A stretch of DNA of 33,605 nt, taken from contig CAJODU010000023.1 in assembly GCA_905233325.1 (NCBI GenBank), positions 1 through 33,605 of the forward strand. The letters run 5' to 3'. Of the stretch, positions 7,867 to 33,424 are shown one piece after another (position 1 is the first letter of the stretch; the number at the start of each line of letters is the position of its first letter). The notes beneath the pieces were generated by a model that made no database searches, was not told the DNA's origin, and worked only from the letters and a program-made list of their open reading frames with translations. The position numbers and the translations under genes are program-made. This stretch comes from an uncultured Selenomonadaceae bacterium. GTDB taxonomy: Bacteria; Bacillota; Negativicutes; Selenomonadales; Selenomonadaceae.

Positions 7867-9108
7867 ATGGCTTATGAGGCATTATACACCCGTGCACGTC
7901 CAAAAAATCTTGCTCAACTCGTCGGGCAGGAACATATAAGCAATTCTTTGGCACGTGCTTTGAATCAGGATCGGCTTTCACACGCCTATTTGCTTGTCGG
8001 TACTCGCGGCACAGGCAAGACTTCAACTGCCAGAATCCTTGCCAGAGCTATAAATTGTGATACTGTACACGAGGCTAACGAAAATAAAAAAATTTTGCCC
8101 AATGACGTGATTCCGTGCAATGAATGTGAGGCCTGCCGCTCGTTCAAAAGTTCGCCGGACAATATAGAATTTGATGCTGCCTCCAATCGTTCCGTTGAAG
8201 ATGTAAGCCGACTGCTGTCGACAGCTTACCTTGCACCCTTGCAATCCCGCTTTAAAACCTTTATCATTGATGAAGTGCATATGTTGTCATTTGAGGCAGT
8301 CAATTCCATTTTGAAACTCATAGAGGAGCCGCCGCCCAATGTCGTCTTCTTCCTTGCCACGACGGAATTTAACAAAGTGCCGCAAACCATTCGCTCACGT
8401 TGTCAAATTTTAAACTTCAAGCTCATTCCTCAAGATGTAATTGCAAATCACATTTTAAATCTCGCTAAAGACTTGAATTTCTCGCTTGAGGAGGCCGCTG
8501 TCAGAAAGATTGCACGCCTTGCCAAGGGTTCGATGCGTGATGCCTTGACTCTCTTTGATCAATGCTACTCTATGACTGATTCGGACTTGTTGACAGTTGA
8601 CATTGTTGATAATACTTTGGGTCTGGTCTCTGATTCTGATCTTGATGAGATTGTTGAGGCTGCCAAATCAAGAGATCGCCGTCAAATAATCGAAAGTACG
8701 GCAAAGGCGTTTAAATCCGGTCTTACTGCCAACATTATTGCAGAATCAATCATCACAAGGCTTCGAGATATTGTATCTGATATAAAGGACAGTCGATCTG
8801 CTGAGTTGGCTGTATACAACGAAATGATTGATCAGCTGCGGAAATCTGTAATTGAAATGCAGGGTTCCGGTATTCCTGAGGTTATACTTGAAACTGCACT
8901 CTTTAAATTCGCCTCTAATCCCGTTTCAATTCCCGTCTATGAAATGCCGAAAGATTATTCATTTGAGGAGACTTACTCTCCGCCTGTCAGAGAATCAGAA
9001 AACAGTCCCAAGCCTAATATCAAAGATAAAGTAGTAAATATCAAGGATTTCAAGACTTCCAAAAAAAATCAAAGTGACGCAGCAGGTGATCTTGACGACG
9101 GATCTTGA
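7867..9108 (+). CDS. dnaX: DNA polymerase III subunit gamma/tau (frame ends early at a tandem duplication)
   Basis: Clamp-loader ATPase. Domains: Walker A GTRGTGKTS (about 45-53), zinc module with cysteines 64, 84, 87 and 90 (CNECEAC), Walker B IIDEVH (about 133-138), the SRC motif (177-179) and the lid domain SMRDALTLFDQ. The frame stops after 413 residues in DLDDGS. The stop TGA lies in the second copy of a 13-base tandem repeat. The next ORF, in the +1 frame, holds the missing C-terminal domain. The 413-residue product is about the size of E. coli gamma and would be a functional ATPase without a tau tail. It follows the SRP RNA and leads the dnaX-ybaB-recR operon. The gene is essential in bacteria, so a gamma-like product or frame recovery must be sufficient if the break is real. 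Confidence 0.93.
   Translation: MAYEALYTRARPKNLAQLVGQEHISNSLARALNQDRLSHAYLLVGTRGTGKTSTARILARAINCDTVHEANENKKILPNDVIPCNECEACRSFKSSPDNIEFDAASNRSVEDVSRLLSTAYLAPLQSRFKTFIIDEVHMLSFEAVNSILKLIEEPPPNVVFFLATTEFNKVPQTIRSRCQILNFKLIPQDVIANHILNLAKDLNFSLEEAAVRKIARLAKGSMRDALTLFDQCYSMTDSDLLTVDIVDNTLGLVSDSDLDEIVEAAKSRDRRQIIESTAKAFKSGLTANIIAESIITRLRDIVSDIKDSRSAELAVYNEMIDQLRKSVIEMQGSGIPEVILETALFKFASNPVSIPVYEMPKDYSFEETYSPPVRESENSPKPNIKDKVVNIKDFKTSKKNQSDAAGDLDDGS
9061..9068 (+). other. A8 tract in dnaX, candidate slippage site
   Basis: Eight adenines (TCC AAA AAA AAT in the dnaX frame) lie 20 bases before the duplication. Loss of one A, or gain of two, in the transcript would join the dnaX frame to the following ORF with no stop between. 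Thermus dnaX is known to use transcriptional slippage on an A9 run; whether that happens here is inference. Confidence 0.45.
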
Positions 9109-9724
9109 CGACGGAAATTATACCGAAGAAGTTGATCCCGTTTTTGCAGAAATAGATAACGATTATATGGATAGTCTGGCTGATTCTCAAAATGAAGGTT
9201 ATTCTGTTTTTTCGGAATTTGACAGCGACTCTATGGATAGTCTGAATGAGTCTAAAAATCAAGAAGAGGCAATCTTTGAGCCGGAAATATCTGAGTCGGA
9301 AAACTTCACCGGCAGCAATCCTGATTTTGAGGAAATGGAGAATCAATCCGAAGATACAGGAGAAGATATATTTAATTTCATTCTAAAAAAACTCGAACAA
9401 AATGGAGAAATTGAAATATTTAATTGTCTTAAACTCGCAAAAGTGGTAAAATACAAATCGGAAACTTTTTTTCTGGAGTTTGCCGGTAGTACAGTTTCCG
9501 CAATGTTCCAAGGATATATTGAAAAATTAGAATTGCTGTCTGAAAAATATCTGGGAAATTATATTAAATTCCAACTTTTCAATGATGAAAACTTGTCAAA
9601 TGATAGCTTTAAGAAAAATGATATTTTTGGTAAGATGGCGGAGCCGGACAAAGAATATTTATTTAATATAATGAAATTTTTTAATGTCGACAAAAATGAT
9701 GTAAGACTTTTATATAATGATTAA
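9074..9724 (+). pseudogene. dnaX: dnaX C-terminal (tau-type) segment in the +1 frame
   Basis: This ORF has no convincing ribosome site at GTG 9074 and starts inside dnaX, so it is best read as the detached end of that gene. It begins with an acidic linker holding an imperfect repeat (DNDYMDSLADSQN, then DSDSMDSLNESKN). A folded region follows from about residue 95 (IFNFILKKLEQNGEIEIFNCLKLAKV...), which resembles the DnaX C-terminal domain of Firmicutes: helix, then alternating strands ending in IKFQLFNDE. In the family this tail binds the polymerase alpha subunit and the replicative helicase. ybaB follows after 33 bases. An alternative is translation as a separate small protein, which I think unlikely. 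Confidence 0.7.
9088..9113 (+). repeat. 13-bp perfect tandem duplication that breaks dnaX
   Basis: GATCTTGACGACG occurs twice head to tail (9088-9100, 9101-9113). Copy 1 encodes DLDDG in the dnaX frame and copy 2 encodes the same residues in the next ORF's frame. Removing one copy fuses 7867-9724 into a single open frame of about 614 residues, so this is the likely mutation. Confidence 0.92.
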
Positions 9725-9757
9725 TTATAGAAAATTAAAACTAAGGAGAAATGATCA

Positions 9758-10105
9758 ATGGCACATCCACCTAAAATTAATATGAATGAACTTCTCAAAA
9801 AAGCTCAAGAACTGCAAAAGTCTCTGGAGGACAGCAAGGAAAAACTCAAGGCAGAGACTGCGACGGCAAGCGTCGGCGGCAATATGGTCACCGCAACTGT
9901 CGACGGTGAAAAGAATGTCAAAGAAATCAAAATTGACCCTGAGCTCATCAAAGACGGTGATGTTGAAGTTATCCAAGACCTCATTGTCAGTGCAATCAAC
10001 TCTGCCAATGCCGAAATTGAGAAGAAAATCACTGATAAGATGAATTCTATGGCAATGCCCTCGCTTGATAATATCCCCGGACTTTCAGGGCTCTTCGGTA
10101 AGTAA
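9758..10105 (+). CDS. ybaB: YbaB/EbfC family nucleoid-associated protein
   Basis: 115 residues with the family pattern: N-terminal coiled helix (MNELLKKAQELQKSLEDSKEKLKAE), beta core (ETATASVGGNMVTATVDGEKNVKEIKIDPELI) and C-terminal helix ending in the glycine-rich PGLSGLFGK. Members are dimeric DNA-binding proteins coating the nucleoid. AAGGAG lies about 10 bases before the ATG. The dnaX-ybaB-recR order is conserved in many bacteria and supports the call. The stop is one base before the recR start. Confidence 0.94.
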   Translation: MAHPPKINMNELLKKAQELQKSLEDSKEKLKAETATASVGGNMVTATVDGEKNVKEIKIDPELIKDGDVEVIQDLIVSAINSANAEIEKKITDKMNSMAMPSLDNIPGLSGLFGK

Positions 10106-10106
10106 A

Positions 10107-10709
10107 ATGAGTTCAAAGGCAATGACAGCGTTGGTGGAATCCCTCACCAAGCTGCCCGGGGTTGGTTACAAGACAGCAACGCGATTAGCTTATCATATCG
10201 TCAATATGAAGGACGCAGAAGTCAAGCACCTTGCCGATACTATCCGCAATATAAAAACGAGTACCAAGGAATGTTCAATCTGTTTCAATACCATTGACAG
10301 CAACAAAGATATTTGCGATATTTGCGCTTCCAATGAGCGTGACGATTCAACCATTTGTGTTGTCAAAGATGCCAAGGATTTAGATGCGATTGAGCGCGCA
10401 GGTTTTTACAAAGGCAAGTACCACGTTACAAATGGGCTTATCTCACCGCTCGCAGGTATTACGCAGGAAAATATCAGACTTCGTGAACTTGTCCAGCGGC
10501 TAACCAAAACCAATGTCAATGAAGTTATCATTGCATTTGAGCCGACTGTCGAGGGTGACGCCACGGCGTTGTTTATTTCTCGTCTGTTGAGTCCGGCGGG
10601 AATTAAAGTCACAAAACTTGCACGCGGTCTGCCGCTCGGTACAGACTTTTCCAGTACAGACAGCTTGACAATCGCTAAAGCTATAGAGAATCGAGTTATT
10701 ATAACCTAA
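10107..10709 (+). CDS. recR: Recombination mediator RecR
   Basis: RecR works with RecO/RecF to load RecA at gaps. Layout: helix-hairpin-helix near the N-terminus (LTKLPGVGYKTATRLAYHIV), a four-cysteine zinc finger (CSICFNTIDSNKDICDIC, about 57-74), a Toprim domain (TICVVKDAKDLDAIERAGFYKGKYHVTNGLISPLAG), and the C-terminal LARGLPLGTDFSSTDSLTIAKAI block. The ORF track starts at 10065 inside ybaB; ATG 10107 (MSSKAMTALVESLTKLPG) gives the normal 200-residue protein and starts just after the ybaB stop, suggesting translational coupling. Confidence 0.95.
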   Translation: MSSKAMTALVESLTKLPGVGYKTATRLAYHIVNMKDAEVKHLADTIRNIKTSTKECSICFNTIDSNKDICDICASNERDDSTICVVKDAKDLDAIERAGFYKGKYHVTNGLISPLAGITQENIRLRELVQRLTKTNVNEVIIAFEPTVEGDATALFISRLLSPAGIKVTKLARGLPLGTDFSSTDSLTIAKAIENRVIIT

Positions 10710-30429: not shown

Positions 30430-32959
30430 TTAATAATTTTGAATGTATTCCATAGGTATATCATTTATAAAGCGGCTTCTTTTCTTACCTTTGAAACTCA
30501 AAAACAGCTTTTTCTTGGCGCGTGTAATGGATACATAAAACAACCTTGTTTCCTCGTCAAGATGATTTTCTTTGATTGATTGCCAACTCGGAAAAGTATC
30601 TTCACTGAGTCCCGCAACAAACACATAGTCAAATTCCATACCCTTTGCCTGATGTACGGTAATGACGGGGATTTTGGTATTGTTCTTCATGAAAAGCTCC
30701 GTGTTGGAGAGCGTTGTATATTGCAATATCCTTTGAATGGCATCGCGTGAAGAGAGGGCAGGATCGTCTAAATCTTTGACGAATACATAGAGATCGCGCA
30801 GATAACCAACTCTTTCTCCTTCTTTGCGTTGCTCGTAATATTCTTTTATCCCAAAAGTTTTGATAATCTCCACCATTAAATCTTGCGGGTGAAGGGTGTT
30901 GACTTTTTCGCGAATGTTAGACATCAGTATCAACATATTGGTGAACTTATCCAGATATTTTGCTATAAGTTTTCTGCGATTCTCAAGGGTCGGCAGAATT
31001 TTTTTCTCAACGGCTATATTCAAAAGTTCCGCCGTGGCACATATGTCATCATAGGCATTATGTGTTGACTTGTGGCTGACGTTGAAGGTATCTCCCAAAA
31101 ATTCCAGCTTGTGATTTTCCAGACCGGGATAAAAACGGCGAAATATATCAAGGGTATCATAGTAATTATCATACTTGAGCGACGGCATTGACAACCTGCT
31201 CATTTGACTTGACAAGATGCTCAAATCATAGTTGACATTGTGACCAACGAGGACGGCACCGGCAACGAACTCAACAAAATCAGCAAATACGCGACGCGGC
31301 TCCTCGCCTTCGGCAGCTAAATATTCATCAGTGAATCCGTGAACAGCGGCGGAACTTCCAACGCTTATGGTGGGCTTGAGTATACGGTTAAATTTTGCCT
31401 TGATATTGCCCTGCTTGTCCAAGCGAACGGCTGCAATTTGGACAATCTCATCTAAAGTTGTGTCAAGTCCGGTTGATTCCACATCAAAAACAACGATATT
31501 TTCAGTCTCCAGTGCTTGGAGCAATTCTTCATAAGGATCACCGAATTTGTGAGTAGAAGGATCCAAAAAATCCGTCAATCGAACACCGCTTTTGTGTGAA
31601 TCGACAGAATTTATATTGTCAATCGTTGCCTCGCCGATACCCTTGCTGAATCTCTTCAAGACACGCTCAAGACTCATACCGTCATGCTTGTTGACTGCAA
31701 GTTTCATAAACGCCAGCACATCTTTAATCTCCTGCCGACGGAAAAAGAAAAATTCATCAATCAGCATAAAAGGTATTTTTTTTGGGGATTGCTTGTTAAG
31801 TTTGGCAAAATTTTCGGCAAGTTCCCTGTTATAGCCATTATTTCGCGTCAGCACACAGATTTTGGTTAAATCCTTGACTTTTAAATTTTCAATTTGATTG
31901 TAGATCCACTGTGCCTCAAGATAAATGTTGTTCGCACCGTAAAGTACAATTTTTTCACCGACGTCGGGACTTGCAACCTTTATATCATCAGGATAAACCG
32001 CATCAACATCGGCTCTGAAACATTTTTTCAAATACGAATAGGACGCTTGTAAAAGTGTACTTGTGGCACGGTAGTTTTCATCAAAGACTATTATTTTGGG
32101 ATTTTGATACTTTTTGTAGTTTTCCTCGACGAGCTTGGGCTTGGAGCCGCGCCACTCGTAGATTGTTTGAAAGGGATCGCCGCATAGCAGCAAATTACTT
32201 TTACCGAAAATTTTGGAGACAATTTTATATTCAAGTTCGTTGGTGTCCTGCACTTCGTCAACGTTGATAAATTTAAATTTCTTCTGCCAGCTCAGTCTGA
32301 TTTCACTATCCTGCAGAGCCTCATTAGCATAAATGATTAGATCATCAAAGTCAAGACCGTGTGCCTCATTTAGTCTGTTGTCATAATCAGCGATAATATC
32401 TGCGCCGTGAGTCCTCATTTCGTCATACAGTCGATTATTCTTTGAAAAGCAGCTTTTCAACCTCACCTGCTCGGTTCTGTAGACTTGTTCTATCGCTTTT
32501 TGATAGTTAGCTGCCCTGTTTGTGGAAGGCAGATCCATAATCCCTATAATTTCCTTGACGATTTTGATGAATCTTTGAATCATGCCGGATAAATGGGGAT
32601 CAATGCTTGGATTAGCCTCAATAAAGCTCTTGCAGTCTTCTTCGTCGAAGATTATAAAATCAGCGAACATTCTTTGCCGTCAAGCGGACTATATCGCAGC
32701 AAAAACTGTGAAATGTCCTAACGACAACATCACGCGCAGCATCTCCGACAATCTCTCCGATCTTGCTCTTGATTTCAATGCAAGCCCTGTTGGTGAAAGT
32801 TAGGCAGAGAATCTCATCAGGCTTGGCTTTGCCGCTGTCGATTATATTTGCAATTCGATATGCAAGTGTGCTTGTCTTGCCTGTTCCGGCTGAGGCAATG
32901 AGCAGAATATTTTTTCCCAATTCATTGACAACCGACTGCTGCAATTTATTCAGTTTCAT
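30430..32959 (-). pseudogene. UvrD-type helicase with internal DnaQ-type exonuclease domain, frameshifted
   Basis: ATG 32959 (GGAGG upstream) starts MKLNKLQQSVVNELGKNILLIASAGTGKTSTLAYRIANII (motifs Q and I) and TFHSFCCDIVRLTAKN. Then the frame is lost at about 32665-32670; one base too many near AATGTTCGCTGAT (for example TT for T) explains it. The second ORF continues with motifs II (NVDEVQDTN), III (LLLCGDPFQTIYEWRGS) and IV (ENYRAT). An exonuclease domain follows at ORF residues about 388-556: FDVESTG, GHNVNYD, HNAYDD. Motifs V (VITVHQAKGMEFDYVFVAG) and VI (ETRLFYVSITRAKKKLFLSF) come last. Restored length is about 844. The gene is a pseudogene only if the shift is real. Confidence 0.82.
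31003..31509 (-). other. DnaQ/DEDDh exonuclease domain inserted in the helicase
   Basis: All acidic and histidine residues of a DEDDh 3'-5' exonuclease are present: Exo I D-x-E in VVFDVESTGLD, Exo II GHNVNYDLSIL and Exo III HNAYDDICATAEL. It lies between the first helicase lobe and motifs V-VI, where UvrD has its 2A/2B subdomains. Confidence 0.88.
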
Positions 32960-32998
32960 TTTATTTCTACCCTCCAAAATTTCAAAATATTTACATAC

Positions 32999-33026
32999 AT
33001 TATACAACAAAAAAAACTTAAGGCAA
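32999..33026 (-). promoter_or_regulatory. Promoter of the helicase gene
   Basis: On the minus strand TTGCCT (33026-33021), 16 bases, TATAAT (33004-32999), about 40 bases before the ATG at 32959. Confidence 0.7.
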
Positions 33027-33121
33027 ATTGAAATTTTTAATCTAATTTTAATCTTTTACTAATCACTTTCAAAGAATAGCGGAGTATGATTAATTAAATT
33101 AATGTGTAGGAAGTGATTTTG

Positions 33122-33424
33122 ATGGGAAAGGTAGCGAGGAAATATCTCTTGCCTCTGATTCTCGGTAGTGTATTCATCTTCGCTATCGATATAGTAACAG
33201 CGGATGCCTCAACAAGAAAAGCGTCTTTGCCGGAGCACAATATTGTACAGACTAAATCATCAGTGAATTTGGAAAATGATAAATTTTGGGACAAATTCAG
33301 AGAATCTGTAATGAAGGACAGAGATAAAGATAAAAACGATCCTGATCGTCCGCCAAGCCCGCCAAGCGACAGCAATCATGAGAGAGCTCCTCACCATGAT
33401 ACAAATCAAAGCAGTCCATATTAA
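33122..33424 (+). CDS. Small secreted hydrophilic protein, unknown function
   Basis: 100 residues from ATG 33122 (AGGAAG 8 bases upstream; GTG 33113 overlaps that site). Signal peptide MGKVARKYLLPLILGSVFIFAIDIVTADA, then a charged region (ENDKFWDKFRESVMKDRDKDKNDP) and a proline/serine/histidine-rich tail (RPPSPPSDSNHERAPHHDTNQSSPY). The mature part looks disordered. TATGAT at 33085-33090 is a possible -10. Unrecognised; a metal-binding or envelope-matrix role is only a guess from the histidines. Confidence 0.65.
   Translation: MGKVARKYLLPLILGSVFIFAIDIVTADASTRKASLPEHNIVQTKSSVNLENDKFWDKFRESVMKDRDKDKNDPDRPPSPPSDSNHERAPHHDTNQSSPY

Follow-up and report, generated by a model that had tools for sequence, protein, structure and literature searches.

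Results

A helicase gene with a predicted internal exonuclease

The window, i.e., the whole stretch of DNA analysed here (33,605 nucleotides), is an entire contig (C23) of a 2.0-Mb, 217-contig, 89%-complete Selenomonadaceae genome. ORF analysis identified two minus-strand ORFs (32660-33010 and 30430-32670) that together cover exactly 32959-30430. The features of this gene are listed below, with L034 denoting the locus of the nearest relative.

32959-30430, minus strand: whole gene for a helicase with an internal exonuclease, in two overlapping ORFs
32660-33010, minus strand: N-terminal ORF, with an ATG start at 32959 and a stop just past the frame break
32663-32959, minus strand: N-terminal helicase piece with subdomain 1A and Walker A (UvrD-helicase, 103.5 bits; 86% identical to L034)
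32873-32896, minus strand: Walker A/motif I, ASAGTGKT (read from the sequence; kept in every fusion that covers the site)
32660-32670, minus strand: frame break, the overlap of both ORFs, with 11 nt fewer than in the intact L034
30430-32670, minus strand: C-terminal piece of 746 aa with the remaining helicase lobes and the inserted exonuclease (ORF and Pfam; dN/dS 0.063 against L034)
31510-31641, minus strand: predicted first part of subdomain 2B, with the GIG motif, before the insertion (matches PcrA as far as residue 430; also aligned with PcrA proteins of Negativicutes)
31009-31509, minus strand: predicted inserted DEDDh exonuclease of about 165-167 aa (RNase_T, 92.6 bits; family exonuclease profile, 265 bits; high-confidence fold in the L034 model)
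31477-31485, minus strand: Exo I with the catalytic D and E (DVE of FDVESTG), invariant in 43/43 fusions
31225-31245, minus strand: Exo II, GHNVNYD, with N and D invariant in 43/43
31045-31062, minus strand: Exo III, HNAYDD (h and D of DEDDh), invariant in 43/43
30691-31008, minus strand: predicted second part of subdomain 2B, past the insertion (PcrA alignment resumes at residue 460; the L034 model has a long helix at 662-689)
30640-30663, minus strand: motif V, TVHQAKGM (sequence and family conservation)
30520-30540, minus strand: motif VI, FYVSITR (sequence and family conservation)

Pfam searches of the window protein returned UvrD_C with 319.5 bits and UvrD-helicase in two pieces with 92.6 and 103.5 bits, and an RNase_T exonuclease domain (92.6 bits) was located between the UvrD domains, where it spans residues 393-550 of the C-terminal piece. 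All UvrD and RNase_T scores were far above the curated cut-offs, and by both Pfam and the sequence the protein ends past motif VI. Walker A, Walker B, motifs III-VI and the UvrD domains are those of the SF1A UvrD-like helicase superfamily, and the RNase_T domain with its D, E, D, h and D residues has the sequence characters of the DEDDh (DnaQ superfamily) exonucleases, from which nuclease activity is predicted. A preliminary description of this DNA had reported all helicase motifs from the P-loop to motif VI, interrupted by about 170 residues with intact Exo I, II and III motifs, and had spoken of a frame-restored protein; the motifs and the interruption were confirmed, and the implied frame break was located at about 32660-32670.

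On the 3' side, the gene is followed by bioB and then by recG. On its other side, a divergently oriented gene encodes a 103-aa protein without a Pfam match (33113-33424), which has a counterpart of 54% identity at the nearest relative's locus (L034:2307-2615). In addition, the window's genome encodes an AddA-like protein and a distinct UvrD/PcrA-type protein of 754 aa.

The exonuclease is predicted to interrupt subdomain 2B

The family profile aligns to PcrA residues 166-430 before the exonuclease and 460-647 after it (UvrD: 168-429 and 457-642), and direct alignment with Negativicutes PcrA proteins likewise yielded PcrA-like sequence on either side. Since subdomain 2B of PcrA, which spans residues 376 to 554 or so, encloses the break in the alignment at 430/460, the exonuclease is placed by these alignments inside 2B, between motifs IV and V and shortly past the GIG element. 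As both halves of 2B are kept, the alignments indicate an insertion into 2B rather than its replacement.

An AlphaFold2 model of the L034 protein (mean pLDDT 85, pTM 0.69) shows a well-folded exonuclease at 491-657, with 2B helices resuming at 662-689, and the top PDB folds retrieved with this model by Foldseek were UvrD, PcrA and Rep (2is6, 1pjr, 1uaa). A sequence search of the PDB matched helicases and DEDDh exonucleases separately and returned no chain with both. The preliminary description had placed the exonuclease at the 2A/2B position, which the alignment narrows to 2B; of the two arrangements it had considered, replacing or adjoining 2B, replacement does not agree with the alignment, in which PcrA sequence is matched on both sides of the domain, as far as residue 430 and again from 460. 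The domain boundaries and the fold class of the model fit an internal position rather than one outside the helicase core.

The frame break in the window copy

The nearest relative, from a Selenomonadaceae genome of the roe-deer rumen (L034), encodes an intact protein of 852 aa that is 80% identical to the window copy. The window copy is 11 nt shorter near 32665, which splits the gene into two frames. The 746 codons downstream of the break nevertheless had a dN/dS of 0.063 against L034, and amino-acid changes were not in excess on the window branch (36 versus 41), indicating that the break is either recent or an artefact. As assembled, the window copy has an out-of-frame deletion and is probably non-functional, or it reflects an assembly artefact. 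That the break arose by assembly or strain mixture, the gene in the cell being intact, has in our estimate somewhat less than an even chance: the window branch shows no excess of amino-acid change and dN/dS is low, the source assembly is in 217 contigs, and a second small out-of-frame change occurs in the same contig, where dnaX is also broken, which makes such an artefact plausible; the loss of 11 nt is, however, atypical for a base-calling error. In dnaX (ORFs 7867-9108 and 9074-9724), the 13-bp unit gatcttgacgacg is tandemly repeated at 9088-9113, at the change of reading frame, and a run of eight A residues lies just upstream, at about 9061-9068.

Other causes of the break were considered and rejected. 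A single-base sequencing error is unlikely, as the difference from L034 amounts to 11 nt, a programmed frameshift is unsupported, as intact relatives are encoded in a single frame, and a long-dead pseudogene is ruled out by dN/dS and the relative rates. Intact copies occur in many other genomes, including two more of the window's genus (G308 and G705).

Distribution and conservation of the fusion

The same order of parts was found at 65 loci, representing 43 non-redundant fusions, and this family-wide conservation rules out a chance or ORF artefact. Residues D496, E498, D582, H637 and D642 (L034 numbering) were invariant in 43/43 fusions, down to about 24% identity. Among the same 43 fusions, the Walker A and B residues were invariant wherever covered and the helicase motifs essentially so. 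The gene is under strong purifying selection, and both active sites, helicase and exonuclease, look competent from their residues. The exonuclease fold might instead be a structural or regulatory insert that is inactive as a nuclease, and pseudo-exonuclease fusions (pExoDinG) do occur in DinG-like proteins (PMC11981726), but the invariance of all five catalytic residues across so divergent a set makes this very improbable.

Intact relatives were identified by genome scan in Veillonella, Megasphaera, Clostridium and Marinisporobacter; those of Veillonella, Megasphaera, Clostridium and Selenomonadaceae are about 860 aa long. A profile survey detected the fusion in 28/29 Veillonellaceae, in 64 of 108 Selenomonadaceae (genomes at least about 90% complete; the window's genome included) and in 28 genomes of a phylum-wide sample of 399, half of these 28 (14) lying outside Negativicutes; occurrence in Clostridia was scattered. 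Full-length distant relatives were found in Acetoanaerobium and in plasmid records of Bacteroidota. Databases label the members '3'-5' exonuclease' or 'ATP-dependent helicase'.

In a rapidly built tree of the helicase parts only, in which some rows were long, a single branch (SH-aLRT 99) separated the fusions, with one change of state, from the sampled PcrA proteins and the phage helicases. A single origin of the family is therefore supported rather than proven. One IMG/VR contig (L104) carries the full fusion. A phage origin was considered and rejected: apart from this contig, the phage helicases examined lacked the exonuclease, and none of 178 INPHARED matches covered 80% of the query. Four further IMG/VR contigs of 100-370 kb (L125, L128, L129 and L130) encode phage UvrD-like proteins of 965-994 aa, which exceed their phage relatives by about 300 aa, and the exonuclease profile had no match in these proteins.

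The preliminary description had proposed a survey of Negativicutes and Clostridia; the family and phylum surveys and the tree show a widespread architecture of apparently one origin. Whether it might already be a characterised common family had also been raised: common it is, but we found no description in the open-access literature of a DEDDh exonuclease built into 2B of an SF1A helicase.

Genomic context and possible functions

In Veillonella, the fusion gene stands in the order dnaX (clamp loader), ybaB, recR, a small ORF and the fusion, followed by a pseudouridine synthase gene. Outside this genus the gene has no constant neighbour and stands alone among unrelated genes, so that the genomic argument for a repair role comes from one genus together with homology. 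The window genome contains a dnaX-ybaB-recR cluster (7867-10709) without the exonuclease-helicase that adjoins it in Veillonella.

The dnaX cluster of Veillonella could also point to an accessory replication proofreader, i.e., a Rep/PcrA-like fork helicase with an additional proofreading exonuclease tied to the clamp loader, and the exonuclease does match PolC-type proofreading domains as well (107.5 bits). Yet the proximal neighbour is recR, the dnaX-ybaB-recR order also exists without the fusion, as in the window, and many relatives within the same family lack the gene, which shows that the fusion is not essential for replication. We therefore regard this function as improbable. Of the two functions that had been suggested for the arrangement, digestion of the 3' end along with unwinding in repair best fits the context, whereas replicative proofreading is possible and has no specific support.

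The main rival to a repair function is anti-phage defence, in which the protein would destroy invading DNA as a UvrD-like helicase-nuclease similar to GajB or RTasHel. The best PADLOC model for the family was RTasHel with 432 bits (PDLC03802), and GajB scored 243 bits. At the same threshold (E <= 1e-110), however, the RTasHel model also matched 163/200 Bacillota genomes as well as the B. subtilis genome used as a control; hence, a match to PDLC03802 alone is no evidence of a DRT system, and RTasHel was rejected as an identity because the model is non-specific. A literature search for 'RTasHel' found nothing. Several plasmid copies of Bacteroidota, which lie beside restriction-like genes for a DNA methyltransferase and helicases or beside genes for kinase, VWA, PP2C and FtsK proteins, also agree with defence, as does the copy on the IMG/VR contig. 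On the Chryseobacterium plasmid pA2BH1 (L054), the exonuclease-helicase gene directly follows those for a DNA methyltransferase, a helicase of DEAD/DEAH type and an AAA protein of 1612 aa. On a plasmid of Prevotella sp. E2-28 (L055), it belongs to a same-strand run with genes for TerY-C, a Ser/Thr kinase, VWA, PP2C, a formylglycine-generating enzyme-like protein and FtsK, a run with the look of a defence or stress island not yet described.

Against defence, the gene tables available for four Bacteroidota loci (L054-L057) list no reverse transcriptase (RT), the window copy is followed on its 3' side by bioB and recG, and the partner GajA (OLD nuclease) is not among the neighbours there or in Veillonella (dnaX, ybaB, recR, pseudouridine synthase). 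Unlike the patchy occurrence of defence genes, the fusion is near-universal in Veillonellaceae and sits beside dnaX-recR in Veillonella, a pattern that is that of a housekeeping gene. Defence as the general function thus appears unlikely, although repair and defence could both be true in different branches, the Bacteroidota branch being the more mobile.

Other repair enzymes were surveyed in the same families. AddA was present in 29/29 Veillonellaceae. ExoDinG did not exceed the cut-off in any of 29 Veillonellaceae or 108 Selenomonadaceae, and an MrfA-type MZB helicase was found in 0/29 Veillonellaceae. As Selenomonadaceae are without ExoDinG whether the fusion is present or not, there is no anticorrelation to demonstrate a replacement in this niche.

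Discussion

A candidate helicase-exonuclease for DNA repair

Taken together, the results make it probable that the gene belongs to a widespread, seemingly single-origin family of helicase-exonucleases acting in DNA repair, in which a PcrA/UvrD-type SF1A motor carries a DEDDh 3'-to-5' exonuclease inserted into 2B. We infer the repair role from the Veillonella operon, the selection on the gene and analogy; the polarity, the substrate and the coupling of both activities are likewise put forward by inference. PcrA and UvrD translocate with 3'-5' polarity, and 2B is an arm that swivels to switch the activity of PcrA, Rep and UvrD. By family resemblance, the motor would load onto single-stranded DNA, move 3'-to-5' as PcrA and UvrD do, and open duplex DNA where there is a gap, flap or lesion. 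Riding on the mobile 2B arm, the exonuclease might then be positioned near the ss/ds junction and trim the exposed 3' end, and the swivel of 2B might, speculatively, gate the nuclease. A single chain would in this way couple unwinding with removal of the 3' end for the repair of lesions, crosslinks or gaps.

A more specific proposal is offered tentatively: within an undescribed SF1A family of single origin, the 2B arm may have become the carrier of a DEDDh domain, so that its movement could place the nuclease at the ss/ds junction or withdraw it, and the enzyme may be the Negativicutes stand-in for the ExoDinG and MrfAB of Bacilli. The fusion is a chromosomal gene in Veillonella, a genus that includes culturable strains. 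This makes it testable how crosslinks or gaps are repaired in bacteria without ExoDinG and MrfA, and whether the conformational switching of 2B can gate a second enzyme.

Comparison with known systems

Helicase-exonuclease fusions are known as a kind, ExoDinG and WRN being examples. Bacterial ones have been called little known (PMC12345164). The described bacterial fusions join their parts end to end, while here the nuclease appears to be built into 2B, the regulatory arm of a motor that is well understood. The preliminary description likewise stated that exonuclease and helicase are usually fused end to end, or combined as in RecB/AddAB with a nuclease of another fold; the internal arrangement is itself common.

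With GajB and RTasHel the fusion shares the UvrD-like helicase, and the RTasHel model spans the whole protein except the exonuclease, which the match skips; no Gabija or RT partner was seen at the loci examined. AddA, RecB and AdnAB also combine an SF1A motor with a nuclease. Theirs is of the PD-(D/E)XK fold, not DEDDh, and no Pfam domain of a C-terminal PD-(D/E)XK nuclease (RecB/AddA) was present in the fusion protein. PcrA, UvrD and Rep share all SF1A motifs, the 1A/1B/2A/2B layout and the GIG element in 2B; the fusion differs by about 190 extra residues in 2B that hold the predicted DEDDh exonuclease. Besides the fusion, the same genome encodes a separate PcrA; the C-terminal piece of the fusion scores 243 bits against the PcrA equivalog TIGR01073 (cut-off 911), and the tree separates the fusions from PcrA.

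ExoDinG, e.g., DinG of S. aureus or B. subtilis, likewise holds a helicase and a DEDDh 3'-5' exonuclease in one chain with a probable role in repair (PMC12345164, PMC11981726), but in DinG the helicase is of the SF2 XPD-like 5'-3' type and the exonuclease is N-terminal, whereas the fusion is of SF1A type with an internal exonuclease, and it scores 75.9 bits against the ExoDinG model TIGR01407 (cut-off 547.7), through the exonuclease part only. In Bacillus subtilis, a 3'-5' helicase (MrfA) and a DEDDh exonuclease (MrfB) act together in the repair of mitomycin damage (PMC10889028, PMC12345164), but these are two separate proteins and the helicase is of the SF2 MZB type. Crosslink resistance through S. 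aureus DinG depends on its exonuclease as well as its helicase, and the authors of that study likened ExoDinG to a fusion of MrfA and MrfB (PMC12345164). The fusion family may do work comparable to that of ExoDinG and MrfAB with an SF1A motor, whose 3'-5' polarity would match that of MrfA.
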